A DNA stretch of 64,000 bases from Rhodobacter viridis (GTDB lineage: Bacteria; Pseudomonadota; Alphaproteobacteria; Rhodobacterales; Rhodobacteraceae): NCBI RefSeq assembly GCF_003217355.1, contig NZ_QJTK01000005.1:1-64000 (forward strand), read 5' to 3'. A program made the translations under genes and the position numbers. Below the pieces are notes generated by a model, which worked only from the letters and a program-made list of their open reading frames with translations, was not told where the DNA came from and searched no databases. Each line of letters starts with the position of its first letter. Position 1 is the stretch's first letter. This document shows positions 2,105-61,023 of this stretch, piece by piece.

Positions 2105-2222
2105 CCGCTTGCCTTTTCCTTGGGCGAAACGCCGGGGGGGTTGCGCGTCAGCGCAAAGCGGGGGGCAGCGCCCCCCGAAGCGCCGGGCGAGCGGCGGGCC
2201 TGCCCGCCCGAGGCGGGCGCAT
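2105..2222. repeat. Intergenic palindromic repeat, half copy, downstream of ftsY
   Basis: Reverse-complemented, 2110-2140 reads as a C-run followed by GGCGTTTCGCCCAAGGAAAA, a degenerate form of the repeat arm seen elsewhere. It is followed by a perfect small hairpin TTGCGC-GTCA-GCGCAA at 2141-2156 and the GC palindrome GGGGGGCAGCGCCCCCC at 2160-2176. Beyond that lie GGCGGGC-type hairpins. It sits 3' of ftsY, like every other copy in the window. Confidence 0.65.
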
Positions 2223-2228
2223 CCGCCC

Positions 2229-3647
2229 TCAGGCCTCTTCGAGACCGACCAGAGCCGCGGCAAATTCCTCGGGATCGAAGGGCGACAGATCGTCGATCTG
2301 CTCGCCCACCCCGATCGCATGGATCGGCAGGCCGAACTTGTCGGCCAGCGCCACCAGCACGCCCCCCTTCGCCGTGCCGTCGAGCTTCGTCATCACGAGC
2401 CCCGACACGTCGGAAATCTTGCGGAACACCTCGACCTGCAACAACGCGTTCTGCCCGGTCGTCGCATCCAGAACCAGAAGCGTGTTATGCGGCGCAGACT
2501 CGTCGATCTTGCGGATCACCCGCACGATCTTCGCCAGCTCCTCCATCAGGTCGGTGCGGTTCTGCAGCCGCCCGGCGGTGTCGATCATCAAGAGATCCAC
2601 CCCCTCGGCCTTCGCCCGCGTCAGCGCGTCAAAGGCGAGCGAGGCGGGATCGGCCCCCTCGGGCGCGGTCATCACCGGCACGCCCGCCCGGTCGCCCCAG
2701 ACCTTCAGCTGCTCGACCGCCGCGGCGCGGAACGTGTCGCCCGCGGCAATGATCACCGACTTGCCCGCGGCGCGGAACTGCGAGGCGAGCTTGCCGATCG
2801 TCGTCGTCTTGCCCGAGCCGTTCACGCCCACCACCAGCACCACCTGCGGGCGGCGCGCATAGATCGGCATCGGCCGCGCCACCGGCTCCATGATCCGCGC
2901 CACTTCGGCGGCCAGCAGATCCTTCAGCTCGTCAACCGAAAGCTTGCGCCCCATCCGCCCCTCGGCGAGGTTCGCCGTCACCCGCAGGGCGGTGTCGACC
3001 CCCATGTCGGCGGCGATCAGCACTTCCTCGATGCTTTCGAGCATCGCATCGTCCAGCACCCGGCGCGGCACGTCGGCCCGGCTGACCAGACGACCGAGCA
3101 GGCCCTGCCGCGCAGGTGCGGGCGCCGCCACCGGTTCCGGCACAGGCTCGGGCTCCTCGGGTTCCGGTTCGGGCTCGGGCTCCGGTTCGGGCGCAGCGCC
3201 CCCCCGGCCCAGCAGGCGGCCAAAGAAGCCGCGCTTCTCGGGCTCAGGCTCGGGTTCAGGCTCCGGTTCGGGCTCGGGTTCATCTTCCGGCTCGGGCTCA
3301 GGCTCCGGTTCATATTCCGGCTCAAGCTCCGGCTGAGGTTCAGGCTCGGCTTCGGCTTCCGGCTCACTCTCGACCTCAGGCTCCGGCTCCACCTCGGGCT
3401 CAAGCGTGGCCACAGGCTCCGCCTCGGCCTCCGGCGCGGGCTCGACGGCGGGTTCCGCGTCGACTTCAGGCTCGGGCTCCGGCTCGGCCACAGGCTCGGG
3501 CGCAGCCGCGACCTCCGGCTCGGGCAGTGCCTCGACTTCGGGCTCGGGCGTGGTGTCCGGGGCCTCGGCGATGATCGCATCGAGCCCCTCCTCGAGTTTC
3601 GAGGACGAGCGGGTGAGCCGGGACTTCAGCTTGTTGAAGAACGACAT
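2229..3647 (-). CDS. ftsY: FtsY, signal recognition particle receptor GTPase
   Basis: A 472-residue SRP receptor that docks ribosome-SRP complexes on the inner membrane for co-translational insertion. The NG domain occupies about 195-472, with P-loop [10 protein letters not shown] (274-283), DTAGR (356-360) and TKLDG (420-424). Residues 34-172 are an extreme Glu-Pro repeat domain (the acidic A domain). It is interrupted by short basic amphipathic segments: [11 protein letters not shown] at the N-terminus, FFGRLLGRG at 141-149 and GLLGRLVSR at 182-190. The start at 3647 has CGGAGG nine bases upstream. The acidic domain is low-complexity, so its length may vary between strains. The NG domain leaves no doubt about function. 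Confidence 0.96.
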
Positions 3648-5423: not shown

Positions 5424-5834
5424 ATGCGCCCAGTTTTCGTTTCACTTGCCCTGATGCTCGCGCCCCTTGGCGCGCTGGCCGAGGACATCGGCCCCCCGCT
5501 CACGGCAGAGCAATTCGACGCGCAGACGCTCGGCAAAACGATCACCTATTCCGCGGGCGGCGTGACCTACGGGATCGAGGAATACCGCCCCGGCCACAAG
5601 GTCGTCTGGGCCTTCGCCGAGGGCGATTGCGAGGAAGGAGACTGGTTCCAGAAGGGCGAGCAGATCTGCTTCGACTACCACAGCCCCGATGTCGGGCTGC
5701 AATGCTGGACCTTCCACATGCAGGGCAACGCGCTGGTCGCCTGGTTCGAAGGCAAGAAGGACAGCTCACCGCTCGTCTCGCTCGACACCAGCACCGCGCC
5801 GCTGAACTGCCCCGGCCCGGAGGTCGGGGTCTGA
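5424..5834 (+). CDS. Small exported protein of unknown function
   Basis: A 136-residue protein with a clear signal peptide (MRPVFVSLALMLAPLGALA, predicted cleavage after residue 19). The mature part has four cysteines, giving possible disulfides, and is rich in Tyr, Trp and Phe (YGIEEYRPGHKVVWAF). I do not recognise a named family with confidence; periplasmic Rhodobacterales proteins of this size and pattern are common. The start is preceded by AAGGGAGACC. It follows the AlkB-like gene by 70 bases on the same strand and may be co-transcribed. A large hairpin repeat follows its stop codon. Confidence 0.75.
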   Translation: MRPVFVSLALMLAPLGALAEDIGPPLTAEQFDAQTLGKTITYSAGGVTYGIEEYRPGHKVVWAFAEGDCEEGDWFQKGEQICFDYHSPDVGLQCWTFHMQGNALVAWFEGKKDSSPLVSLDTSTAPLNCPGPEVGV

Positions 5835-5860: not shown

Positions 5861-5921
5861 AAAGAGGCGTATTTGAGCCAAGAAGAAACATGGGCTTCTT
5901 CTTGGCTCAAATACGCTCTTT
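5861..5921. repeat. Long perfect hairpin between convergent genes (repeat-family variant)
   Basis: Arms at 5861-5887 and 5896-5921 pair over about 26 bp, with one bulged G, around an 8-base loop. The arm core is CGTATTTGAGCCAAGAAGAA, which aligns with the arm of the repeat copy at 20017-20044. It lies 26 bases after the stop of the small exported protein and 25 bases before the end of the convergent xseA gene, so it may end transcription from both sides. Confidence 0.85.
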
Positions 5922-5946
5922 GCGCGGGTTGCCCCGTGAAAACCCC

Positions 5947-7416
5947 TCAGAACAACGAGCCCTGATCGGGTGGGGCCTTGGCAGGTTTGCGGGGTTTGGC
6001 AGGCGGTTTCTGGGCCGCCTGCGGCGGGGGGGGCGGCGCGTCGGAGGGGAGGACGCGCAGACGGCCATCCTGAAACTCGATCGCGAGCGGCGCGCAGGTC
6101 GCGGCGGTGGCGGCGGTGGTCAGCACCTGATCGGCCGGGCCACGCACCACCGCATAGCCGCGCCGCAGGGTCTCCTGATAGCCCAGCGTCTGCAGCATCG
6201 CGATGAGCCGCGCGAACCGGTCCTGCGCCCGGGTCAGCCGGGTCTTCTGCGCGCGCTCGAGCCGGTCGGAGAGCGAGGCCAGCCGGTCGCGCTCGACCCG
6301 CAGATAGGTCTGCAACAGCCGCGGCGAGATCCGGGCCTCGAGCGGCGCAAAGGCCGCGCGCTTGCGCACGACGACCATGCGCAGCGCGGGCGAGAGCCGG
6401 TCGGCGACCAGATCGAAGCGCTGGCGGCGCGGCCGGGTGATCGCCTCTGGGCGGCCGAGCGCGCGTGACAGATCGGCAAGGCGCTGCGCCCGGGTGCTGA
6501 GGCGCAGTTGCGTTGCCCGGGCGATGCGGGCCTGCATCTCGGCAAGCCGGATCGCCAGTTCCGCCCGCACCGGCACGGCCATTTCCGCCGCCGCCGTAGG
6601 CGTGGGGGCGCGCCGGTCGGCGGCAAAGTCGATCAGTGTCGTGTCGGTCTCATGGCCCACCGCGGAAATCAGCGGGATCTTGCTTTCCGCCGCCGCCCGC
6701 ACGACCACTTCCTCGTTGAAGCCCCAGAGGTCTTCCAGCGAGCCGCCGCCGCGCGCGACGATGATCAGATCAGGCCGCGGCACCTTGCCTCCGGGCGTCA
6801 GCGCGTTGAAACCACGGATCGCCGCCGCCACCTCGGGGGCGCAGGCCTGCCCCTGCACCGCCACCGGCCAGATCAGCACCCGGCGCGGAAAGCGGTCGCG
6901 CAGCCGGTGCAGGATGTCGCGGATGACCGCCCCCGAAGGCGAGGTGACCACCCCGATCACCGCGGGCAGCCAGGGCAGCGGTTTCTTGCGGGCCGGATCG
7001 AACAGCCCCTCGGCCGTCAGCGCCTTGCGCCGCGCTTCGAGCATCGCCATCAAGGCCCCCGCTCCCGCGGGTTCGACATCATCGACGATCAGCTGATATT
7101 TCGACTGCCCCGGAAAAGTGGTCAGCTTGCCGGTGGCGATGACCTCCATCCCCTCCTCGGGGCGGATCTGCATCCGCGCCACCTGCCCCTTCCAGCTGAC
7201 CGCGGCGATGACGGCATTCGGGTCCTTGAGGTCGAAGTAAAGATGCCCGGAGCCGGGACGGCTGACCCGCCCCACCTCGCCGCGCACCCGCACACGGCCG
7301 AATTCGCCCTCGATCACGCGTTTCACCGCCCCGGAGATTTCCGAGACGGTGAATTCGGGCGTGTTGCCGGAGGGCGTGTTTTCGGGGGCCGCCGGGCCAT
7401 CGTCAAGCAGATCCAT
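5947..7416 (-). CDS. xseA: Exodeoxyribonuclease VII large subunit
   Basis: A 489-residue protein matching XseA, the large subunit of the single-strand exonuclease that degrades DNA to acid-insoluble oligonucleotides. The N-terminal OB-fold (about 20-120, with GEVGRVSRPGSGHLYFDLKD) is followed by the catalytic domain (TSPSGAVIRDILHR, ARGGGSLEDLWGFNEE, SAVGHETDTTLIDFAADRRA). A basic, helical, coiled-coil-prone C-terminal third follows. It ends in a Pro/Lys-rich tail (PAKPRKPAKAPPDQ). The small subunit xseB is not in the window. ATG at 7416 with weak upstream GGGGGCAT. Its 3' end faces the hairpin at 5861-5921. Confidence 0.95.
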   Translation of the reverse strand: MDLLDDGPAAPENTPSGNTPEFTVSEISGAVKRVIEGEFGRVRVRGEVGRVSRPGSGHLYFDLKDPNAVIAAVSWKGQVARMQIRPEEGMEVIATGKLTTFPGQSKYQLIVDDVEPAGAGALMAMLEARRKALTAEGLFDPARKKPLPWLPAVIGVVTSPSGAVIRDILHRLRDRFPRRVLIWPVAVQGQACAPEVAAAIRGFNALTPGGKVPRPDLIIVARGGGSLEDLWGFNEEVVVRAAAESKIPLISAVGHETDTTLIDFAADRRAPTPTAAAEMAVPVRAELAIRLAEMQARIARATQLRLSTRAQRLADLSRALGRPEAITRPRRQRFDLVADRLSPALRMVVVRKRAAFAPLEARISPRLLQTYLRVERDRLASLSDRLERAQKTRLTRAQDRFARLIAMLQTLGYQETLRRGYAVVRGPADQVLTTAATAATCAPLAIEFQDGRLRVLPSDAPPPPPQAAQKPPAKPRKPAKAPPDQGSLF

Positions 7417-8019: not shown

Positions 8020-9282
8020 ATGAACATTCTCATTCTGGGCAGCGGCGGGCGTGAACATGCGCTGGCCTGGGCGGTGAAGCAGAACCCGAAATGCGACCGG
8101 CTGATCGTCGCGCCGGGCAATGCGGGCATCGCGCTGCTGGCCGAGGTCGCGGCGATCGATCCCTGCGATGCGGCGGCAGTTCTGGCCTGTGTCGAAGAAA
8201 ACGCCGTGGATTTCGTCATCATCGGCCCCGAGGCGCCCTTGGCCGCGGGCGTGGCCGATGCGCTGCGGGCGGCGGGCGTGCTGACCTTCGGTCCCTCGGC
8301 CGCGGCGGCGCAGCTTGAGGCCTCGAAGGGCTTCACCAAAGAGATTTGCGACGCCTGCGGCGCGCCGACGGCGGCCTGGGCGCGGTTCAACGACCTCGAT
8401 GCCGCGCTGGCCTATGTCCGCGCCCAAGGCGCGCCGATCGTGGTCAAGGCCGATGGTCTGGCCGCGGGCAAGGGCGTGATCGTGGCGATGACGCTTGACG
8501 AGGCCGAGGCCGGCCTGCGCGAGATCTTCGGCGGCGCTTTCGGCGCGGCGGGCGCCGAGGTGGTGATCGAAGAATTCATGGCGGGCGAGGAAGCGAGCTT
8601 CTTCATCCTGTCCGATGGCGTGAACGTGCTGCCCGTCGGCACGGCGCAGGACCACAAGCGCGTGGGCGATGGCGACACCGGGCCGAACACCGGCGGCATG
8701 GGCGCCTATTCCCCGGCGCCGGTTCTGACCACCGCCATTCAGGAACAGGTGCTGGCCGAGATCGTTCGCCCGACGGTGGCAGAAATGGCCCGCCGCGGCA
8801 TGCCGTTTCAGGGCGTGCTTTACGCCGGTCTGATGATCGAGAACGGCCGGGCGCGGCTTGTCGAATACAACGTCCGCTTCGGCGATCCGGAATGTCAGGT
8901 GCTGATGCTGCGCCTTGGCGGTCAGGCGCTTGATCTGCTGCAAGCCTGCGCCGAGGGGCGGCTGGATCAGATCACCGCGCAATGGGCCGAGGATCATGCC
9001 CTGACCGTGGTGCTGGCCGCGCAGGGCTATCCGGGTGCCTATGTGAAGGGCAGCGAGATCAGGGGCCTCGACACCCTGCCCGAGACCGCGTCGCAGATGG
9101 TCTTCCATGCCGGAACGACGGCGACGGACGGCAAGATCACCGCGACGGGCGGGCGCGTCCTGAACGTCACCGCCCGCGCCGCGACCCTCGCCGAGGCGCA
9201 ACAGCGCGCCTATGCGATGGTCGATGCGATCGACTGGCCCGAGGGCTTCTGCCGCCGCGACATCGGCTGGCGCGCGCTCTGA
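8020..9282 (+). CDS. purD: Phosphoribosylamine-glycine ligase (GARS)
   Basis: A 420-residue single-domain PurD, the second enzyme of purine synthesis, joining glycine to phosphoribosylamine with ATP. The N-domain begins MNILILGSGGREHALAW. The ATP-grasp region has VVKADGLAAGKGV (about 140-152), PNTGGMGAYSP and the metal-binding EYNVRFGDPE. Length and domain order are normal. It diverges from the small PGBD-like gene, with about 190 bases of shared upstream sequence. A full copy of the palindromic repeat family lies right after its stop, between it and the convergent sdaA. Confidence 0.97.
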   Translation: MNILILGSGGREHALAWAVKQNPKCDRLIVAPGNAGIALLAEVAAIDPCDAAAVLACVEENAVDFVIIGPEAPLAAGVADALRAAGVLTFGPSAAAAQLEASKGFTKEICDACGAPTAAWARFNDLDAALAYVRAQGAPIVVKADGLAAGKGVIVAMTLDEAEAGLREIFGGAFGAAGAEVVIEEFMAGEEASFFILSDGVNVLPVGTAQDHKRVGDGDTGPNTGGMGAYSPAPVLTTAIQEQVLAEIVRPTVAEMARRGMPFQGVLYAGLMIENGRARLVEYNVRFGDPECQVLMLRLGGQALDLLQACAEGRLDQITAQWAEDHALTVVLAAQGYPGAYVKGSEIRGLDTLPETASQMVFHAGTTATDGKITATGGRVLNVTARAATLAEAQQRAYAMVDAIDWPEGFCRRDIGWRAL

Positions 9283-9290
9283 CCCTGCGC

Positions 9291-9409
9291 GCGGGGGCGC
9301 TGCCCCCGCACCCCCGGGATATTTCAGGCAAGATAAAGCAGGTCGTTTCCTTTTATCTTGCCGCAAATATCTCGGGGGAGCCCGCTTGCGGGCGGGGGCA
9401 GAGCCCCCG
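9291..9409. repeat. Full nested palindromic repeat between purD and sdaA
   Basis: The outer GC palindromes are GGGGGCGCTGCCCCC (9292-9307) and GGGGGCAGAGCCCCC (9394-9408). Inside them, a left arm 9311-9337 (ATATTTCAGGCAAGATAAA core) pairs with a right arm 9352-9378 (TTTATCTTGCCGCAAATAT core) around a 14-base loop. The whole can fold into one long hairpin. It lies between convergent genes. Confidence 0.85.
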
Positions 9410-9459
9410 AAGCGCCCGACGCGCGGCGGGCTTGCCCGCCCAAGGCGGGCGCAACCACC

Positions 9460-10839
9460 TCAGCAGTTCGGCACGTTCACCGCCAGACCGCCAAGCGATG
9501 TTTCCTTGTAATGCTCGTGCATGTCGCGCCCGGTCTGCCGCATCGTCTCGATCGCGGCATCAAGCGGCACGAAATGCGTGCCGTCGCCGCGCAGCGCCAG
9601 CGAGGCCGCCGAAATCGCCTTGATCGCCCCAAGGCCGTTCCGCTCGATGCAGGGCACCTGCACCAGCCCCTTCACCGGGTCGCAGGTCATGCCAAGATGA
9701 TGTTCCAGCGCAATCTCGGCCGCGTTCTCGATCTGCTCGGGCGTACCGCCCAGCACCGCCGCCAAGCCCGCCGACGCCATCGCCGCCGCAGAGCCCACCT
9801 CGGCCTGACAGCCGCATTCGGCGCCGGAAATCGAGGCATTCGTCTTGATGATCCCGCCGATTGCCGAAGCCGTCAGCAGGAAATCCCCCACCCGGCTCGT
9901 CGAGGCCCCGGGCACGTGATCCAACCAGTAGCGGATCACCGCGGGCACAACCCCCGCCGCGCCATTCGTCGGCGCCGTCACCACCTGCCCTCCGGCCGCG
10001 TTTTCCTCGTTCACCGCCATCGCATAACAGGAAATCCAGTCGTTGATCGTATGCGGCGCCACCATGTTCAGCCCGCGTTCAGATTCGAGCGCCAGATGGA
10101 TCGCCTTCGCGCGGCGCTTCACCTTCAGCCCGCCCGGCAGCACGCCATCGGTCTCGAGCCCGCGCGTCAGGCAATCGTTCATCACCTGCCAGACCCGGGC
10201 GAGACCCGCCTCGATCTCCTCGTCCGAGCGATACCGCCGCTCGTTGCGGCGTTTCATCTGCGCGATCGTCAGCCCCGCGGCATGGGCCATCGACAGCATC
10301 TCGTCCGCCGTGCGGAACGGATAGGGCACCGGCGAGGGCGCCGCGAGCGCCTTGTCATCGACCGCGGCATGTTCCGCCTCGGTCAGGACAAACCCGCCGC
10401 CGATCGAATAGAAGGTCTCGCGCAGGATCACGTCGCCCTCGGCGTCGCGGGCCTCGATCACCATGCCATTCGCATGGCCGGGCAGCGGATGGCCGTAATC
10501 GAAGATCAAATCGTGCTCGGGATCGAATTGCAGCGGCGCGAGACCCGGCGGCGTCAGCATGTGGGTCTCGCGGTTGGCGGCCAGCGCCGCCTCGGCCTTC
10601 TCGGCCTCGTAGCTCTCGGGCAGGAACCCGGCGAGGCCCAGGATCGTCGCGCGGTCGGTCGCGTGGCCCTTGCCGGTGAAGGCGAGCGAGCCGTAAAGCC
10701 GCACCCGCAGATGGCGCGGATGGAAAGGCGAGGCGCGGAGCATGTCGAGAAACCGCCCGCCGGCCACCATCGGCCCCATCGTATGCGACGAGGACGGGCC
10801 GACGCCCACCTTGAAGATGTCGAAAACGCTCAGAAACAT
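9460..10839 (-). CDS. sdaA: L-serine ammonia-lyase (iron-sulfur type)
   Basis: A 459-residue single-chain L-serine dehydratase converting serine to pyruvate and ammonia with a [4Fe-4S] cluster. The beta domain starts [20 protein letters not shown]. The alpha domain carries the cluster cysteines ECGC (342, 344), TCDP (386) and VPC (397). The protein ends in PNC, the C-terminal cysteine that in bacterial type-2 enzymes folds back onto the cluster. The start at 10839 is preceded by GGGAGTG; the open frame upstream lacks a site. It is monocistronic between convergent purD and a divergent Hint-domain gene. Confidence 0.96.
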
Positions 10840-19449: not shown

Positions 19450-19914
<465 letters not shown>

Positions 19915-19995: not shown

Positions 19996-20044
19996 GGGGG
20001 GCTCCGCCCCCCGCACCCCCCGGCGTATTTTGCCAAGGAAAAGC
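19996..20044. repeat. Intergenic palindromic repeat, half copy, between fdxE and purU
   Basis: The GC palindrome GGGGGGCTCCGCCCCCC (19996-20012) is followed by a C-run and the arm GGCGTATTTTGCCAAGGAAA. The matching second arm is missing, so this is a half element. The rest of the 335-base gap 19915-20249 holds a further imperfect inverted repeat around GCGCGTTGGCGCC (20060-20100) and no gene that I can support. Confidence 0.75.
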
Positions 20045-20249: not shown

Positions 20250-21134
20250 ATGACGACCTATGTGCTGACCGTGAACTGCCACTCGACCCGCGGGATCGTG
20301 GCGGCGATTGCCAACTATCTGGCCGACAGCGGCTGCAACCTGACCGATTCGAACCAGTATGACGATCTGCTGACCGGCCAGTTCTTCATGCGCGTCACCT
20401 TCGTCTCGCAAACCGGGGCCACGCTCGAGAGCCTGAAGGCGGGTTTCGAGCCGGTCGCCAAGGAATTCGACATGGAATGGGCGATCCATGACGCCGAGAA
20501 GAAGGTCAAGGTCCTGCTGATGGTCTCGAACTTCGGCCATTGCCTGAACGACCTGCTGTATCGCTGGCGCATCGGCGCGCTGCCGGTCGAGATCGTCGGC
20601 GTCGTCTCGAACCACATGACCTACCAGAAGGTCGTGGTGAACCATGACATCCCCTTCCACCACATCAAGGTGACGAAGGAGAACAAGCCCGAGGCCGAGG
20701 CGCATTTGCTCGATGTGGTCGAGGAATCGGGGGCCGAGCTGATCGTTCTGGCGCGCTACATGCAGATCCTGTCGGACAAGCTCTGCCAGAAAATGTCGGG
20801 CAAGATCATCAACATCCACCACTCGTTCCTGCCGAGCTTCAAGGGCGCCAACCCCTACAAGCAGGCCTATGAGCGCGGCGTGAAGCTGATCGGGGCGACC
20901 TCGCACTATGTGACCGCGGACCTTGATGAAGGCCCGATCATCGAGCAGGAAACCGTCCGCATCACCCATGCGCAAAGCCCCGATGATTACGTCAGCCTTG
21001 GTCGCGACGTCGAGGCGCTGGTGCTGGCCCGCGCGATCCATGCCCATGTGCAGCACCGCACCTTCATCAATGGCAACAAGACCGTGGTCTTCCCGGCCTC
21101 GCCCGGCGGCTACACCTCCGAGCGTATGGGCTGA
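20250..21134 (+). CDS. purU: Formyltetrahydrofolate deformylase
   Basis: A 294-residue PurU that hydrolyses 10-formyl-THF to formate and THF, balancing one-carbon pools. An N-terminal ACT regulatory domain (about 1-85, TYVLTVNCHSTRGIVAAIA) precedes the formyl-transferase fold (from about 90). The fold carries IINIHHSFLPSFKGA (catalytic Asn/His) and VTADLDEGPIIEQE (catalytic Asp). The start is preceded by GAAAGGAACCGGG. It stands alone between two repeats. The C-terminal hydrolase motif and the ACT domain distinguish it from PurN. Confidence 0.95.
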   Translation: MTTYVLTVNCHSTRGIVAAIANYLADSGCNLTDSNQYDDLLTGQFFMRVTFVSQTGATLESLKAGFEPVAKEFDMEWAIHDAEKKVKVLLMVSNFGHCLNDLLYRWRIGALPVEIVGVVSNHMTYQKVVVNHDIPFHHIKVTKENKPEAEAHLLDVVEESGAELIVLARYMQILSDKLCQKMSGKIINIHHSFLPSFKGANPYKQAYERGVKLIGATSHYVTADLDEGPIIEQETVRITHAQSPDDYVSLGRDVEALVLARAIHAHVQHRTFINGNKTVVFPASPGGYTSERMG

Positions 21135-21250: not shown

Positions 21251-21315
21251 GGGGGGCTCTGCCCCCCCTTTTGGTTTCACCAAAAGTCCCCCCGAGATAT
21301 TTGTGGCAAGATGAA
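21251..21315. repeat. Intergenic palindromic repeat, half copy, between purU and lolC
   Basis: GGGGGGCTCTGCCCCCC (21251-21267) is followed by the hairpin TTTTGG-TTTCA-CCAAAA (21269-21285) and the arm ATATTTGTGGCAAGATGAAA preceded by a C-run (21287-21315). The other arm is absent. The remainder of the 307-base gap 21135-21441 holds nothing else that I can support as a gene. Confidence 0.8.
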
Positions 21316-24864: not shown

Positions 24865-26811
24865 TCAGCGCAGATCGGGCGGCGTCGCCTCGGCTTTCAG
24901 CGCGGCCACGATGGCGTCGAGCCCCACGGTTTCGGTGCGGGTATCGCCCAGACGGCGGACGGACACGGTGCGCGTCTCGACCTCTTTCGCGCCGATGGCG
25001 AAGATGTAGGGCACCTTGCCCAGGCTGTGCTCGCGGACCTTGTAGTTGATCTTCTCGTTGCGGGTGTCGCATTCGGCGCGAATCCCCGCCGCGATCAGCG
25101 TGGCCGCGACTTCTTCCACGTAATCATCGGCTTCCGAGGTGATCGAGGCGACAACGACCTGCCGCGGCGCCAGCCACAGCGGCAGCTTGCCCGCATGCGA
25201 TTCGATCAAGATGCCGATGAAACGCTCGAACGACCCCAGACAGGCGCGGTGCAGCATCACCGGGCGGTGCTTGGCGCCATCCTGACCGATGTAATTCGCA
25301 TCGAGCCGCTCGGGCAGGTTCGGGTCCACCTGCAGCGTGCCGCATTGCCAGTCGCGGCCGATCGCATCGGTCAGCACGAATTCGAGCTTCGGCCCGTAGA
25401 AGGCGCCCTCGCCGGGGAAAATCTCATACTCATGCCCGGCCGCGGTGACGGCATTCGCCAGCGAGGCTTCGGCGTGATCCCAGCTTTCCTCGGTCCCGAT
25501 CCGCTTTTCGGGCCGGGTCGAGAGCTTGATGCGCCATTTGTCGAAGCCGAGATCCGCGTAAACCGAGGACAGGAACTCGATGAATTTCTTCGTTTCCGCT
25601 TCGATCTGATCTTCCATGCAGAAGATATGCGCGTCGTCTTGCGTGAAACCGCGCACCCGCATGATGCCATGCAGCGCCCCCGAGGGCTCGTAGCGCGCGC
25701 AGGAGCCGAATTCCGCCATGCGCAGCGGCAGATCGCGGTAGGACTTCAGCCCGACGTTGAAGATCTGCACGTGGCAGGGGCAGTTCATCGGCTTCAGCGC
25801 GTTGATCACCTTTTCCCGCGCGCCCTCTTCGTCGACTTCGACGATGAACATGTTCTCGCGGTAGTTTTCCCAGTGCCCCGAGGCCTCCCAGAGCTTGCGG
25901 TTAACCACCTGCGGCGTGTTCACCTCGACATAGCCATCGGCGCGCTGGCGGCGGCGCATGAAGTCCTGCAGCGTGGTGTAGATCGTCCAGCCGTTCGGAT
26001 GCCAGAACACCTGCCCCGGCGCTTCCTCCTGCATGTGATAGAGGTCCATCTCGCGGCCGAGCTTGCGGTGGTCGCGTTTGGCGGCCTCTTCGAGCATGGT
26101 CAGGTGGGCCTTGAGATCATCGCGCGAGCGGAAGGCGATGCCGTAGATGCGCTGCAGCATCGGGCGCGTGCTGTCGCCCAGCCAATAGGCGCCCGCGACA
26201 TGGGTCAGCTTGAAGGCGTCCGCGGGCACCTGCCCCGTATGCTGCAGGTGCGGGCCGCGGCAAAGATCCTGCCAGCCGCCGTGCCAGTACATGCGGATGT
26301 TTTCGCCTTCGGGGATGCGATTCACCAGTTCGACCTTGTAGGGTTCGCCGGTCTTTTCGTAATGCGCGATGGCATCGGCGCGCGACCAGACCTCGGTCTT
26401 CACCGGCTCGCGGGCGTTGATGATCTGCTTCATCCGCGCTTCGATCGCGCCCAGATCTTCGGGCGTGAAGGGCTCGGCGCGGTCGAAGTCATAGAACCAG
26501 CCGGCATCGCGCACCGGGCCGATGGTGACCTTCACATCGGGCCACAGCTCCTGCACGGCGCGGGCCATGATATGGGCCAGATCGTGCCGGATCAGCTCCA
26601 GCGCCGGAACCGGGTCCTTCATCGTGTTGATGGAAATCCGGGCGTCCTGCGTGATCGGCCAGGCGAGGTCCCAATGCGCGCCATCGAGTTGCGCCGAGAT
26701 CGCGGCCTTGGCCAGCGAGGGCGAGATCGAGGCTGCCACCTCGGCCGCCGTCACCCCTGCAGGGTACTCGCGCTTCGCGCCATCGGGAAAGTGGAGAGAG
26801 ATCTGGGACAT
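24865..26811 (-). CDS. thrS: Threonyl-tRNA synthetase
   Basis: A 648-residue class II synthetase. N-terminal TGS domain (1-62) and editing domain (about 65-225) with the His motif [12 protein letters not shown]. The catalytic core carries the zinc ligands Cys in [11 protein letters not shown] and His in [14 protein letters not shown], plus motif 2 [13 protein letters not shown]. The anticodon-binding domain runs from about 540. The start at 26811 is preceded by GAGGAGGACAC. Monocistronic; upstream lies a full palindromic repeat belonging to the next gene's 3' end. Normal length with editing domain intact. Confidence 0.97.
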
Positions 26812-26925: not shown

Positions 26926-27061
26926 GGGGGGCTCTGCCCCCCTCTTGGCCTTCGGCCAATTCACCCCCCGAGATATTTGGAGCAAGATAAAAGGGATCAG
27001 GATTTATCTTGCCACAAATATCTCGGGGGGAGTCCCGAGAGGACGGGGGGCAGAGCCCCCC
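26926..27061. repeat. Full nested palindromic repeat downstream of the outer-membrane barrel gene
   Basis: The best-preserved copy. Outer GC palindromes GGGGGGCTCTGCCCCCC (26926-26942) and GGGGGGCAGAGCCCCCC (27045-27061) are inverted copies of each other. Between them lie the small hairpin TTGGCC-TTC-GGCCAA (26945-26959), a left arm (26964-26991, ATATTTGGAGCAAGATAAA) and a right arm (27003-27030, TTTATCTTGCCACAAATAT). The arms surround an 11-base loop. The whole could fold into one hairpin of more than 100 bases. Confidence 0.9.
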
Positions 27062-27088: not shown

Positions 27089-27724
27089 TCAGAACCGGAA
27101 GCCCGCGCGCAGCTGCACGGTGTTGAAGTTGGTGTCGACGCTGCTCGTCGAGCCGTCGAAATCGGTGCTGAGGTCGCGGCGGATCAGTTCCGCACCGACC
27201 GTCCATTTGTCATTCACCGCGTAATCGACGCCCAGACCGTAGTTCACGCCATCGGCCGCGCCGTTGGTCTGGCCGTCGCCGTTCTTCCAGTCGCCGCGCG
27301 AATAGCCGACGAAGGCATAGGGCAGCGCCTTGCCATAGGCCATCCCGGCGCGGGCCTTCAGGTCGATCATGTTGTCGAACTTGCCCGGCGCGCCATCCAG
27401 ATTGAAGTCGGTCGCCTGCGCCGCGATCTCGCCACCGTAGACGAGCGCGCCATTTTGCAGGTTGTAGCCGCCAAAGACCCCATAGCTGCCGCGGCCGATG
27501 TCAAAGCCGGTATCGGCCGAGCCGGGGGTCTTGTAGTTGGCGCCACCGCTGGTGGACGAGCCGCCGGTCACACCGGCGTAGAAGCCCTCCCAGGATTGCA
27601 CCGGCGCGGGCGCGGGAACCGCGGCGACGGGCTCGCTTTCGACCACCGGGGGCGTCAGGCCACCGGCAAAGGCGGGGGCAGCAAGGCTCGCCATCGCGGC
27701 GATCGCAACACTGAGCTTTTTCAT
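27089..27724 (-). CDS. Outer-membrane beta-barrel protein (Omp25/OmpA-barrel-like)
   Basis: A 211-residue protein with signal peptide MKKLSVAIAAMASLAAPAFA. A short Pro/Val-rich linker (about 21-43) precedes a barrel domain beginning SWEGFYAGVTGG, the typical start of the opacity/Omp25-31-like fold. Alternating hydrophobic strands follow, and the protein ends in VQLRAGFRF with the C-terminal Phe recognised by the barrel-assembly machinery. Likely a small 8-strand porin-like barrel with a structural role. The stop is 28 bases from a full repeat element. The 5' flank of about 185 bases is AT-rich. Confidence 0.88.
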   Translation of the reverse strand: MKKLSVAIAAMASLAAPAFAGGLTPPVVESEPVAAVPAPAPVQSWEGFYAGVTGGSSTSGGANYKTPGSADTGFDIGRGSYGVFGGYNLQNGALVYGGEIAAQATDFNLDGAPGKFDNMIDLKARAGMAYGKALPYAFVGYSRGDWKNGDGQTNGAADGVNYGLGVDYAVNDKWTVGAELIRRDLSTDFDGSTSSVDTNFNTVQLRAGFRF

Positions 27725-47424: not shown

Positions 47425-48585
47425 GTGCTGGGACGGATCGAGAGACTTTTCGCGCATGAGGCCGCCGGGGGCATCGTGCTGATGCTGGCGACGGCGCTGG
47501 CGCTGGTGCTGGCGAATACCGATCTTTCAGGGCTTTACGCGCAGGTCCTGCATCTGAAATTCACCATCGCTCTGGGCGAGACGGGGCTGTCGAAGCCCCT
47601 GATCCTGTGGATCAACGACGGGCTGATGGCGGTCTTTTTCCTGCTTGTCGGGCTGGAGTTGAAGCACGAGATGCGCGAGGGGCGGCTGAAGACGCCCTCG
47701 AACGTGGTGCTGCCCGGGGTGGCGGCGCTGGGGGGCATGCTCGCGCCCGCGCTGATCTATCTCGCCTTCACCTGGGCCGACCCGGTGCACCGGACCGGCT
47801 GGGCGATCCCGACCGCGACCGACATCGCCTTTGCGGTCGGCGTCGTGGCGCTTCTGGGCAAGCGGGTACCGCCCGCGCTGAAGCTTTTTCTGCTGACGCT
47901 GGCGATCCTCGATGACCTTGGCGCCATTCTGGTGATCGCGCTGTTCTACACGGCCGAGTTGAAACCCGCCTATCTGGCACTGGCCCTGATCCCGATCGCG
48001 CTGATGGCACTGCGGCTCTGGACGGGCGCGCATCGGATTGCGCCGACGCTGATCCTCGGCGCGGTGCTTTGGGTGCTGGTGCTGAAATCCGGGGTGCATG
48101 CGACGCTGGCGGGGGTGGTCACGGCCTTCTTCCTGCCGATCCGCGACCGCCACGGCAAGTCACCCCTGCATGCGCTGGAACACGCGCTCTCGCCCTATGT
48201 CGCCTTCCTGATCGTGCCGATCTTCGCGCTGGCCAATGCGGGCGTGGGGCTGACGGGCCTCGGCCTCGCCGATCTGGCGGCGCCGCTGCCCTTGGCGATC
48301 GCGCTGGGTCTGGTGATCGGCAAGCAACTGGGCGTCTTCGGGGCCACTTTCGCGCTGGTGAAACTGGGCTTTGCCCGCCTGCCCGAGGGCGCAAGCTGGC
48401 TCCAGCTTTACGGCATCGCCGCGCTCGCCGGGATCGGCTTCACCATGTCGCTCTTCATCGGCTCGCTGAATTTCGAGACCGATGCGCAGATGAATGCGGT
48501 GCGGCTGGGGGTTCTGGCGGGCTCGCTGGTCTCGGCGCTCGTAGGCTATGCAGTGCTGCGGCTTGCCCCGCAACGGGCCGCGTAG
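47425..48585 (+). CDS. nhaA: Na+/H+ antiporter NhaA
   Basis: A 386-residue, 12-span antiporter exporting sodium in exchange for protons, important at alkaline pH and high salt. The sensor/transport aspartates match the E. coli numbering: Asp133 in TATDIAFAVGV and Asp163-Asp164 in AILDDLGAI. Start is GTG at 47425 with ACAGGAGG upstream. No nhaR is seen. A full palindromic repeat starts at its stop codon. Confidence 0.95.
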   Translation: MLGRIERLFAHEAAGGIVLMLATALALVLANTDLSGLYAQVLHLKFTIALGETGLSKPLILWINDGLMAVFFLLVGLELKHEMREGRLKTPSNVVLPGVAALGGMLAPALIYLAFTWADPVHRTGWAIPTATDIAFAVGVVALLGKRVPPALKLFLLTLAILDDLGAILVIALFYTAELKPAYLALALIPIALMALRLWTGAHRIAPTLILGAVLWVLVLKSGVHATLAGVVTAFFLPIRDRHGKSPLHALEHALSPYVAFLIVPIFALANAGVGLTGLGLADLAAPLPLAIALGLVIGKQLGVFGATFALVKLGFARLPEGASWLQLYGIAALAGIGFTMSLFIGSLNFETDAQMNAVRLGVLAGSLVSALVGYAVLRLAPQRAA

Positions 48586-48742
48586 GGGGGCGCTGCCCCC
48601 CTCTTCCCTGCGGGAATTCACCCCCCGGGATATTTTCGGCAAGATAAATCAGCACGAAAAAGGCGCCCCTTTCGGAGCGCCTTTTGCTTTTATCTTGCCC
48701 CAAATATCCCGGGGGAGTCCGAAGGACGGGGGCAGAGCCCCC
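48585..48742. repeat. Full nested palindromic repeat with a terminator between its arms
   Basis: GGGGGGCGCTGCCCCCC (48585-48601), small hairpin TTCCC-TGC-GGGAA (48604-48616), left arm (48621-48648, ATATTTTCGGCAAGATAAA) and right arm (48689-48715, TTTATCTTGCCCCAAATAT), then GGGGGCAGAGCCCCC (48728-48742). In the loop lies AAAAGGCGC-CCCTTTCGGA-GCGCCTTTT (48658-48685), an intrinsic-terminator-like hairpin. It lies between convergent nhaA and mcm. Confidence 0.9.
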
Positions 48743-48751
48743 TCTCCGGTG

Positions 48752-50881
48752 TCAGCTGCGCGCCGCGCGGATCAGATCGAGGATTTCGCGCGCCGCGGCG
48801 GGGATGTTGGTCCCCGGCCCGAAGATCGCCTTCACCCCGGCCGCCTTCAGGAAATCGTAGTCCTGCTGCGGGATCACGCCGCCACAGATGACGAGGATAT
48901 CCTCGGCGCCCTTTTCCTTCAGCGCTTCGATCAGCTTCGGCGCCAGCGTCTTGTGACCCGCCGCGAGCGAGGAGATGCCGACCACGTGCACGTCGTTGTC
49001 GACCGCATCCTGCGCCGCTTCCTCGGGGGTCTGGAACAGCGTGCCCACATCGACGTCGAAGCCGATGTCGGCAAAGGCCGTCGCGATCACCTTGGCGCCG
49101 CGGTCATGGCCGTCCTGCCCCATCTTCACGACAAGCATCCGCGGACGGCGCCCCTCGGCCTCGGCGAAGCTGTTCACATCGGCCTGGATCTGCGCAAAGC
49201 CCGCGTCGCCTTCGTAAGCCGCGCCATAGACGCCCGAGAGCGTCTTCACCTCGGCGCGGTGACGCCCGAAGATTTCTTCCATCGCCATCGAGATTTCCCC
49301 CACCGAGGCCCGGGCGCGGGCCGCTTCGACGGCGGCTTCGAGAAGGTTGCCGCCCTCTTTCGCGCGCCGGGTGACTTCGGCCAGAGCGGCCGCACATTTC
49401 GCTTCGTCGCGGGTCTCGCGCATCTTCGTCAGCCGCGCGATCTGGCTGTCGCGCACCGCCATGTTGTCGATGTCGAGAATGTCGAGATGCTCTTCCTTGG
49501 CGAGACGATACTTGTTCACGCCAACGATCACATCCTCGCCGCGGTCGATTGCGGCCTGACGCTTGGCGGCCGATTCCTCGATCCGCAGTTTCGGCATCCC
49601 CGAGGCCACGGCCTTGGTCATGCCGCCCATCTCTTCGACTTCCTCGATCAGCGCCCAGGCCTTCTCGGCCAGTTCCGCCGTCAGCGCCTCGACATAATAG
49701 CTGCCCGCGAGCGGATCGACGACCTTGGTGACGCCGGTCTCTTCCTGCAGGATGATCTGGGTGTTGCGCGCGATCCGGGCCGAGAATTCGGTCGGCAGCG
49801 CAATCGCCTCGTCCAGCGCGTTGGTGTGCAGCGACTGCGTCCCGCCCAGCGCCGCCGACATCGCCTCATACGCCGTGCGGATGACGTTGTTGTAGGGGTC
49901 TTGCTCCTGCAGCGACACGCCCGAGGTCTGGCAATGGGTGCGCAGCATCAGCGAGCCGGGTTTCTTCGGCTCGAATTCCGACATGATGCGGTGCCACAAG
50001 AGGCGCGCCGCCCGCAGCTTCGCCGCTTCCATGAAGAAGTTCATGCCGATGGCAAAGAAGAACGACAGACGCCCGGCGAAATCATCGACGTTCATGCCAC
50101 GCGCCAGCGCCGCGCGCACATATTCGCGCCCGTCGGCCAGCGTATAGGCGAGTTCCTGCACCAGGTTCGCGCCCGCTTCCTGCATGTGGTAGCCGGAAAT
50201 CGAGATCGAGTTGAACTTCGGCATCTCTTTCGAAGTGTATTCGATGATGTCCGCAATGATCCGCATCGAGGGTTCGGGCGGATAGATATAGGTGTTGCGG
50301 ACCATGAACTCCTTGAGGATGTCGTTCTGGATCGTGCCCGACAGAAGCGCGCGGTCGACGCCCTGTTCTTCGCCGGTGACGATGAAGTTCGCCAGCACCG
50401 GGATCACGGCGCCGTTCATCGTCATCGAGACCGAGACCTTTTCGAGCGGGATGCCGTCAAACAGGATCTTCATGTCTTCGACCGAGTCGATCGCCACGCC
50501 GGCCTTGCCGACATCGCCGACGACGCGCGGGTGGTCGCTGTCATAGCCGCGGTGGGTGGCCAGGTCGAAGGCGACCGAGACGCCCTGTTGCCCTGCGGCC
50601 AGCGCCTTGCGGTAGAAGGCGTTGCTTTCCTCGGCGGTCGAGAAGCCCGCATATTGCCGGATCGTCCAGGGACGGCCCGCATACATCGTCGCCCGCACGC
50701 CGCGGGTGAAGGGGGCAAAGCCCGGCAGGCTGCCCATATGCGGCAGCTCGGCCGTGTCTTCGGCGGTGTAAAGCGGTTTGACCGCGATGCCTTCGAGCGT
50801 GTTCCAGGTCAGCGCGTCAAGCGGCTTGTCACGCAGCTCCTTCTGAGCGAGCTTCGCCCAGTCCTCTTTCTTCGTGGTCAT
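48752..50881 (-). CDS. mcm: Methylmalonyl-CoA mutase
   Basis: A 709-residue B12-dependent mutase interconverting methylmalonyl-CoA and succinyl-CoA, the last step of propionate assimilation and part of the ethylmalonyl-CoA pathway. The N-terminal TIM barrel carries [18 protein letters not shown] and GYHMQEAGA. The C-terminal cobalamin-binding domain has DGHDRG with the axial His592. Start 50881 has GAAGAAGGAAAGTCCC upstream. It overlaps the sulfotransferase gene by 53 bases at its start. Last gene of the pccA-led minus-strand run; a full repeat follows its stop. Confidence 0.96.
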
Positions 50882-59838: not shown

Positions 59839-61023
59839 ATGGCCTTCCTGAACCGCAAGACGCCGCCGCATATCGTCACCCTTGTGCTCACCACCGGGGT
59901 GGCGGCGCTCAGCCTCAACATCTTCCTGCCCTCGCTGCCCGGCATGGCCCGGCATTTCGGCGTCGATTACGGGCTGATGCAGCTCGCCGTTTCGGCCTAT
60001 CTGGCAGCCTCGGCGGTGGCGCAATTCGTGGTCGGGCCAATCTCCGACCGCTTCGGACGCCGCCCGGTGCTGCTTTGGGTGGTGGCGATCTTTACCCTGG
60101 CCTCGGTCGCGGCGCTTTTCGCGCCGAACGCGCAGGCCTTTCTGGCCGCGCGCTTCGTGCAGGCGGTCGTGGCCACCGCCTTCGTGATCTCGCGCGCGGC
60201 GGTGCGCGACATGGTCCCCGGCCCTGCGGCCGCCTCGATGATCGGCTATGTCACGATGGGGATGTCGGTGGTGCCGATGATCGGCCCGGCAGTCGGCGGC
60301 CTGCTGGACGGGCTTTTCGGTTGGCACGCCAACCTTGCGGTGCTGGCCGTCTCGGGGGCGGCTCTTTTCGCGCTGATCTGGGCCGACATGGGCGAGACCG
60401 TCTCGGGCGGCGGCCTTGGCTTTGGCGCGCAGATGCGGGCCTATCCGATCTTGCTGCGCTCGAGCCGGTTCTGGGGCTATGCGCTCTCCGCCGCCGCCTC
60501 GGCGGGGCTTTTCTACGCCTATCTCGGCGGCGCGGCGCTGGTGGGCGAGCAGGCCTTCGGCCTTTCGCCGGTCGAGGTCGGCTATTTCTTCGCCCTGCCC
60601 TCGCTCGGCTATCTGATCGGCAACTGGGTCTCGGGGCGGTTCTCTCTGCATCTGGGCATGGACCGGATGGTGCTCTGGGGCACGACGCTTGCCACCGCCG
60701 CGATTGCCGTGGCGCTGATCGCCAAGGCGGCGGGCGTGCTTGGCCCCGTCGTCTTCTTCACCGCCGTCGGCATCACCGGCATCGGCAACGGGCTTTCGCT
60801 GCCCTCGGCCAATGCGGGGCTGATGTCGGTGCGGTCGGATCTGGCGGGCACGGCCTCGGGCCTTGGCGCGACGATGACGATCGGCACCGGCGCCGTTCTC
60901 GCCAGCCTGACCGCGACGCTGCTTGGCCCCGAGGTCGAGGTGGCGCGGCTTCTGTGGGTGATGTTCGCCTCTTCGGCGCTGTCCGTGGGCGCGATCCTTT
61001 GGGTGATGCGGCGGCCTCAATAA
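59839..61023 (+). CDS. MFS transporter, Bcr/CflA-type multidrug efflux
   Basis: A 394-residue, 12-span major facilitator. The cytoplasmic loop SDRFGRRPVLLW (about 70-81) is the MFS motif A. SRAAVRDMVPGPAAASMIG and FLPSLPGMARHFG are characteristic of the Bcr/CflA subfamily (DHA1). Exports drugs or metabolites; the substrate is unknown. It lies 70 bases after the DUF486 gene, same strand. Its stop overlaps the convergent lipoprotein gene by 7 bases. Confidence 0.9.
   Translation: MAFLNRKTPPHIVTLVLTTGVAALSLNIFLPSLPGMARHFGVDYGLMQLAVSAYLAASAVAQFVVGPISDRFGRRPVLLWVVAIFTLASVAALFAPNAQAFLAARFVQAVVATAFVISRAAVRDMVPGPAAASMIGYVTMGMSVVPMIGPAVGGLLDGLFGWHANLAVLAVSGAALFALIWADMGETVSGGGLGFGAQMRAYPILLRSSRFWGYALSAAASAGLFYAYLGGAALVGEQAFGLSPVEVGYFFALPSLGYLIGNWVSGRFSLHLGMDRMVLWGTTLATAAIAVALIAKAAGVLGPVVFFTAVGITGIGNGLSLPSANAGLMSVRSDLAGTASGLGATMTIGTGAVLASLTATLLGPEVEVARLLWVMFASSALSVGAILWVMRRPQ

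Follow-up and report, generated by a model that had tools for sequence, protein, structure and literature searches.

A two-part repeat at gene ends of a Rhodobacter genome, with a tag that changes in concert between species

Why do near-identical palindromes recur behind the genes of one bacterial genome? Bacterial gene-end hairpins are usually thought to require folding only. The window, the whole 64,000-nt stretch analysed, is C5:1-64000 in a draft of 3.87 Mb and 55 contigs. At its positions 26926-27061, we find a paired element in which two sequence blocks surround three free bases; across many loci these blocks are near-identical, and from species to species they change together. The original prediction had seen palindromes at gene ends, but it had missed the three-base gap, the species dialects and the concerted switch of one block.

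The PurD protein of the window shares 93% identity with its counterpart in Rhodobacter capsulatus SP108 and 87% with the one in R. aestuarii; judged by PurD alone, the genome would belong to a Rhodobacter near R. capsulatus. Gene positions were taken from a codon-based caller, independent of annotation, which placed 758 genes in an 804-kb set made up of two contigs and the 64-kb window in which the element was first noticed. A 1.09-Mb set with 98 clusters of arms is enriched, as 40 of its stretches were picked for hits.

Elements in the window

Each arm of the element has a head, RTATTT, that three free bases (N3) separate from a tag of 10 nt. The copies in the window are as follows.

26926-27061, no strand: whole paired element, in the gap between a minus-strand gene at 24865-26811 (its start) and a minus-strand outer-membrane beta-barrel gene at 27089-27724 (its stop)
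26926-26942, plus strand: left GC hairpin GGGGGGCTCTGCCCCCC of the 26926 element
26973-26991, plus strand: left arm of the 26926 element, ATATTT-GGA-GCAAGATAAA (head, N3, tag)
27003-27021, minus strand: right arm of the 26926 element, ATATTT-GTG-GCAAGATAAA
27045-27061, minus strand: right GC hairpin of the 26926 element, the reverse complement of the left one
5861-5925, no strand: CCAAGAAGAA-subtype pair that lacks GC hairpins, in the convergent gap between a plus-strand gene at 5454-5834 and minus-strand xseA (5947-7416)
9293-9408, no strand: pair (copy 9291), in the convergent gap between purD (8020-9282, plus) and a serine dehydratase gene (9460-10839, minus)
48585-48742, no strand: pair enclosing a canonical terminator-like hairpin, in the convergent gap between nhaA (47425-48585, plus) and a methylmalonyl-CoA mutase gene (48752-50881, minus)
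21251-21315, plus strand: single unit with GC hairpin, second hairpin and an arm at 21297-21315 with the standard core, downstream of a formyltransferase/ACT gene (20250-21134, plus)
19996-20043, plus strand: minor-subtype single unit GTATTT-TG-CCAAGGAAAAG with a 2-nt spacer, downstream of a ferredoxin-type gene (19591-19914, plus)
2113-2176, minus strand: decayed single unit (copy 2105) with GGCGTTTCGCCCAAGGAAAAG behind the GC hairpin, downstream of an SRP GTPase gene (2229-3647, minus), ftsY by domain order

All seven places predicted to share a core do exist, but copy 2105 is a decayed arm without an intact core. The arms are inverted, as had been described, in the four full pairs (5861, 9291, 26926 and 48585), while 21251, 19996 and 2105 are single arms. 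The proposed folding into one hairpin is borne out by the computed fold of the 136-nt copy at 26926-27061, which reaches -100.5 kcal/mol (z = -10.7).

Structure of the repeat unit

The unit is directional and runs, in order, from a GC hairpin (of the GGGGGCTCTGCCCCC type, in one subtype) through a C-run and the head RTATTT to N3 and the tag, which in this genome reads GCAAGATAAA, GCAAGATGAA or CCAAGAAGAA. We aligned the two main arm types, A and B. In type A, the hairpin is G4-6, a loop of CTCTG or CGCTG, and C4-6; it is followed by GGA, GCA, AGA or a second small hairpin, then by C4-6 and GAG or GGG, and the arm ends in RTATTT, N3 and GCAAGATRAA. Type B reads AAGGGCGTATTT, N3, CCAAGAAGAA and mostly has no GC hairpin. 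Conservation in the arm alignment drops sharply 3' of the tag. The three run lengths of type A are equal in 67 of the 81 readable arms, with 6:6:6 in 22 of the 81, which suggests alternative pairing or strand-switch correction. The lengths of the hairpin G-run and of both C-runs in type-A arms correlate at r = 0.81-0.87.

GC hairpins of the unit type occur 35 times in 804 kb, and 27 of these are intergenic, lie immediately 5' of an arm and point in the same direction; hairpin and arm thus form one directional unit. The other eight comprise two that precede a same-direction arm inside called ORFs, three elsewhere near an arm, and three that precede a minor-subtype or decayed arm. Where arms are paired, their orientation is nearly always tail to tail: 46 of the 98 clusters in 1.09 Mb are '+-', one is '++-' and one is '-+'.

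Position relative to genes

The placement of arms was checked against gene ends over the 804 kb and found to be strongly non-random. Among 58 exact arms, 42 lie in convergent gaps, 14 in tandem gaps, one in a divergent gap and one in a called ORF, or 5.68 arms per kb of convergent gap, 0.30-0.33 of tandem gap, 0.04 of divergent gap and 0.0014 of coding DNA. Convergent gaps hold 26 of the 37 intergenic clusters, against 9.7% expected by length (p = 1.4e-18), whereas divergent gaps are shunned (1/37 against 31.8% expected, p = 1.3e-5). The claim that every copy lies 3' of a gene therefore stands for all seven copies in the window and fails for the one divergent arm; the claim that coding regions are free of copies does not hold, given the one arm within an ORF, near its C-terminal end. 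Divergent gaps, as called, hold 7 of the 98 clusters in the hit-enriched 1.09-Mb set; an uncalled gene is probably hidden in at least one of them (L170), and others appear truly divergent. Including overlapping genes, 28 of 113 convergent junctions carry the element, and many element-free ones have a canonical-looking terminator or hardly any gap. From this placement, the purpose of the unit should concern gene ends.

A strand-specific RNA signal would predict that solo arms are oriented in the sense direction. We counted 26 sense and 17 antisense solo arms (p = 0.22), no significant strand preference, and this idea was dropped; a reader of DNA would thus fit at least as well as a reader of RNA.

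Sequence constraint and pairing

The pattern GATATTTNNNGCAAGATRAA, with at most one mismatch, has 116 matches in the genome, and RTATTTNNNSCAAGANRAA marks 218 exact arms in the 3.87 Mb; the reversed pattern gave 0 in both searches. A known tag follows 60 of the 101 intergenic RTATTT heads in 804 kb exactly, 10 with one to four changes and 31 with five or more, in a count that required only the head, so that copies with a decayed head such as 2105 escape it. Within coding DNA, 2 of 180 RTATTT have a tag. Counting arms within two mismatches in 804 kb, a range outside which heavily decayed copies like 2105 fall, the solo arms are exact in 15 of 17 cases and the paired arms in 43 of 49. Thirty loci of genome G067, fetched with a pattern that fixes 12 of 16 positions, share one head and tag sequence and show 14 N3 values. 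Copying would have carried N3 along, so its variety indicates that head and tag are kept by selection rather than by recent copying. These data, with few decayed copies seen, argue for sequence-specific selection on head and tag, with N3 free.

Does pairing between the arms explain this constancy? A finder that requires only the heads returned 50 pairs in the genome, 11 in R. capsulatus, 16 in the records L069-L147 and 0 in reversed sequence. Arm complementarity in these pairs was 0.18-0.58 over N3 and 0.69-1.00 over the next ten bases; at the eleventh base it was 0.36 in this genome and 0.69 in the others. With a tag-blind finder, 18 pairs at 15 loci of named records had a tag match of 0.861, compared to 0.501 when permuted (maximum of 10,000 permutations: 0.683), while their N3 match was 0.259 compared to 0.271. 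In the source genome, N3 pairs slightly above the permuted level (0.480 vs 0.419, p = 0.03). Both pairing and identity of the tag are kept, and N3 is free save for this slight excess.

We consider it unlikely that an inverted pair acts by folding alone, whether it would block 3'-5' exonucleases or belong to a bidirectional terminator. This reading draws on the strong folding of the pairs tested (z from -9.2 to -11.5, the 48585 pair left out), on the 30 of 47 pairs whose loop is 8-12 nt long and on the compensating tag differences across species, yet pairing leaves identical tags at unlinked loci unexplained. Single arms are mostly intact, as counted above, though 3 of 20 solo clusters in 804 kb have a diverged partner; the G067 loci are mostly solo; and one solo unit that was folded did little better than shuffled sequence (z = -1.4). 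The tags of the two arms are also unlike in 10 of the 47 pairs, and intact solos together with these mixed pairs suggest that the single arm is what is read.

Tag variants across the Rhodobacterales

The family is present in the Rhodobacteraceae as species "dialects", which are nearly pure in some genomes. Of 196 genomes in the order, 74 match the RTATTTNNNSCAAGANRAA pattern, and 43 do so at ten or more places (reversed control: 5 in all). The remaining 122 have no match to this pattern, which fixes one tag kind while other dialects exist, and they may use another tag. In a class-wide sample of 115 genomes, the eight other matching genomes all belong to other families and have 1-2 matches each, near the control level (5). 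With a search pattern that left four of sixteen positions open, 99 of 100 listed places in G067 read ATATTT-N3-GCAAGAAGAA and 97 of 100 in G023 read GTATTT-N3-CCAAGATGAA; a looser pattern found GCAAAATGAA at 51 of 59 listed places in Pseudothioclava arenosa. Some genomes have several tags: R. capsulatus and R. aestuarii two or more, R. capsulatus indeed three or more, and Thioclava indica two tags at two loci.

Downstream of purD, relatives show the same head with other tags, such as TCAAGATGAA, GCAAAATGAA, GCGATTGGA and AACAGATGAA, and many of the 80 loci have no such unit; a finder requiring a 9-nt paired tag detected 22 pairs in these 80 loci and 0 in reversed sequence. Head pairs numbered 0 in 50 kb each of Ruegeria TM1040 and P. 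denitrificans, although a BLAST match elsewhere in Ruegeria TM1040 does show the unit. No phage record matched the unit. BLAST placed it in 26 Rhodobacterales plasmid records, as partial matches only. Of five plasmid units inspected, four immediately follow an annotated gene (RidA, iolC and GIY-YIG twice); the annotation around the fifth, in Ruegeria TM1040, is incomplete and gives a divergent gap. A nearly identical single unit was noted 6 nt behind a GIY-YIG nuclease gene at 1196-1263 of both L272, a conjugative plasmid of Phaeobacter, and L273, a mobilizable one of Thioclava, so plasmids can move a tag between genera.

Comparison with R. capsulatus

Of 615 junctions in the source genome, part of them picked for hits, 34 have both flanking genes in the fetched R. 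capsulatus stretches. Eleven of these carry the element, and ten of the eleven also do so in R. capsulatus; at the other 23, R. capsulatus has no element. Five of the ten shared loci (9282, 26811, L150, L176 and one arm of L168) carry GCAAGATRAA here and CCAAGGTRAA in R. capsulatus. At 26811, the locus of the 26926 element, both R. capsulatus arms carry the tag CCAAGGTGAA; at 9282, both arms have likewise switched, and the spacer of the second R. capsulatus arm is 2 nt. The sequence around 26811 is well conserved, as is one flank of 9282; the flanks of L150 and L176 are conserved less well. Smaller differences from R. capsulatus were observed at L175, where the head base differs in both arms, and at L179, where TAAA became TGAA in one arm. 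Type B tags are the same in both species at 5834, L186 and one arm of L168, and at L169 R. capsulatus has an apparently different intergenic repeat in place of the element. Conserved positions with the same tag change at five loci argue for selection on the sequence itself, probably through a putative trans-acting factor that co-evolves with the tag.

Could the unit instead be a mobile repeat, or one that was mobile in the past, and be no more than tolerated at gene ends? REPs and REPINs are extragenic and of high copy number, form inverted doublets that fold into hairpins and are species-specific in sequence, according to the parts consulted of PMC3116915 and PMC3733652. The unit works most like these REP/BIME/REPIN systems, being a short extragenic palindrome in hundreds of copies with inverted hairpin doublets and species-specific sequence, and single units also occur on conjugative or mobilizable plasmids, yet it fails the tests for a Y1/RAYT transposase and for singlet decay. 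Searches for the Y1 transposase (PF01797) gave 0 in the source genome and a match in 3 of 10 element-bearing genomes, with none in 7; the control was positive in 5 of 14 known genomes. Unlike in REPINs, singlets are not more decayed than doublets, and, unlike in REPs and REPINs generally, the unit has a free N3 gap between two fixed blocks, conserved positions and a tag that switches in concert. The 10/11 shared positions, with no gain at the 23 others, and the variation of N3 inside identical copies also speak against mobility. Two pairs examined by eye showed no evident target-site duplication, and N3 itself as a duplication is at odds with the top-strand triplets, which differ within both the 26926 and the 9291 pair (by eye). 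No GTAG or CGTC end of the kind given in section 6 of PMC3733652, the part consulted, was seen by eye in logos that span only -24 to +34 of the arm. The miniature mobile element that the original prediction had offered as an alternative is thus disfavoured, and we regard it as distinctly improbable. The word "Rhodobacter" is absent from the main texts of the repeat papers PMC3733652, PMC2817692, PMC12306157, PMC2267715 and PMC3116915, and no description of the unit was found in the literature searched, mostly at the level of titles and abstracts.

Terminators and transcript ends

A role at transcript ends or in 3' protection had been predicted as well; the gene-end placement on which it was built is strongly supported, and the role itself we infer. 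As inverted repeats between convergent genes, with GC hairpins, the units resemble bidirectional intrinsic terminators, and TCTTT-like stretches come after the GC hairpin in some of them. If the unit took the place of ordinary terminators, convergent gaps that carry it should have fewer of these. Terminator-like hairpins were found in 18 of 28 convergent gaps with the element and 19 of 31 without it when the unit's own hairpins are included; when these are excluded, they are somewhat rarer beside the unit (10/28 vs 19/31, p = 0.07), and in three of those 10 the T-run is the head itself (by eye). This difference left the odds of our leading interpretation (below) as they were and slightly raised those of the plain terminator. 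It is nonetheless very unlikely that the units are ordinary intrinsic terminators of a GC-rich genome, alike through shared ancestry and composition only. Unlike bidirectional terminators, the core hairpin has no consistent U-tract, or long T-run, behind it in the listed junctions (by eye), and sequence conservation exceeds what hairpin formation needs. Canonical-looking terminators among the same junctions share no evident sequence (by eye), and ordinary terminators would not account for an N3 that is free where head and tag are fixed, or for tags that switch in concert.

Rfam gave no match over the element at the gathering score; at a permissive threshold, the best of 28 matches was mir-988, with 28.2 bits compared to a gathering score of 72. 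The head RTATTT resembles the RN-WUU consensus of RNase E. AU enrichment is described at R. sphaeroides sites in the part of PMC6238624 consulted. By this analogy the head may be an RNase E site, which we treat as a lead only.

Neisseria DUS and Pasteurellaceae USS are near-exact motifs that vary as species dialects and form inverted pairs where convergent genes end, and these uptake sequences are frequent in coding DNA. An uptake-like signal made uniform through molecular drive (biased DNA uptake) would share with them the near-exact short motif, the dialects and the inverted pairs between convergent genes, but is highly improbable for a unit that is two-part with a free spacer, almost absent from coding DNA (1/58 exact arms) and sparser, at 218 arms in the whole genome.

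A putative reader of gene ends

The placement, the intact solo arms and the mixed pairs lead us to favour a trans-acting factor that would read head and tag where genes end. Our leading interpretation, which we hold tentatively and rate somewhat short of probable, is that the arms are sites for this putative factor, that the unit separates transcription units at gene ends, and that the copies follow as the specificity of the factor drifts. Each arm (head, N3 and tag) would be recognised by the factor, whether on DNA or RNA, and would stand at gene 3' ends, often with a GC hairpin and mostly as an inverted pair between convergent genes. Such a pair would also fold into a long hairpin in RNA from either strand, and the unit would define or protect RNA 3' ends, or stop read-through, from both sides. 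Drift of tag specificity between species would leave one or a few dialects per genome. Of all this, the computation establishes how the unit is built and where it lies, a steady head and tag beside a free N3, the dialects, the shared positions and the tag change in concert, whereas the factor and the role at transcript ends are putative. As some genomes have several tags, one factor per genome may not suffice. For a candidate gene of the factor, we looked for a common protein family beside the divergent, reversed and in-ORF copies and saw none by eye.

A broader reading, which we find doubtful but worth stating, is a family-wide system of gene-end addressing, with a constant head, a fast-drifting tag and a fast-evolving trans-acting reader, in which convergent ends are rewritten in concert. 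The pattern points to a putative gene-end reader in a well-studied family, that of R. capsulatus, and head, tag and N3 offer a clean, testable prediction. The units could possibly serve as portable bidirectional end parts for phototroph engineering.

Additional observations

A second intergenic repeat, GC-rich and about 230-280 nt long, was seen by eye at convergent gene ends of the source genome (C2:54557-54805 and 60035-60271; C3:11980-12215, 176197-176444 and 179216-179500), and the repeat at the R. capsulatus orthologue of L169 resembles it by eye. At C2:31102-31120, the reading frame of an ORF that resembles an L,D-transpeptidase (named by eye) runs through an antisense arm and its GC hairpin near the C-terminal end. 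A 56-nt repeat, 88% identical between window positions 2172-2227 and 9404-9459, adjoins copies 2105 and 9291. At positions 3157-3549 of the window, the N-terminal part of the FtsY-like protein contains a long low-complexity repeat that stays in frame. Finally, an ALIL pseudoknot (RF01497, 79 bits), which we take to be the frameshift signal type of IS3-like insertion sequences, was detected at 108-221 on the plus strand of the window.
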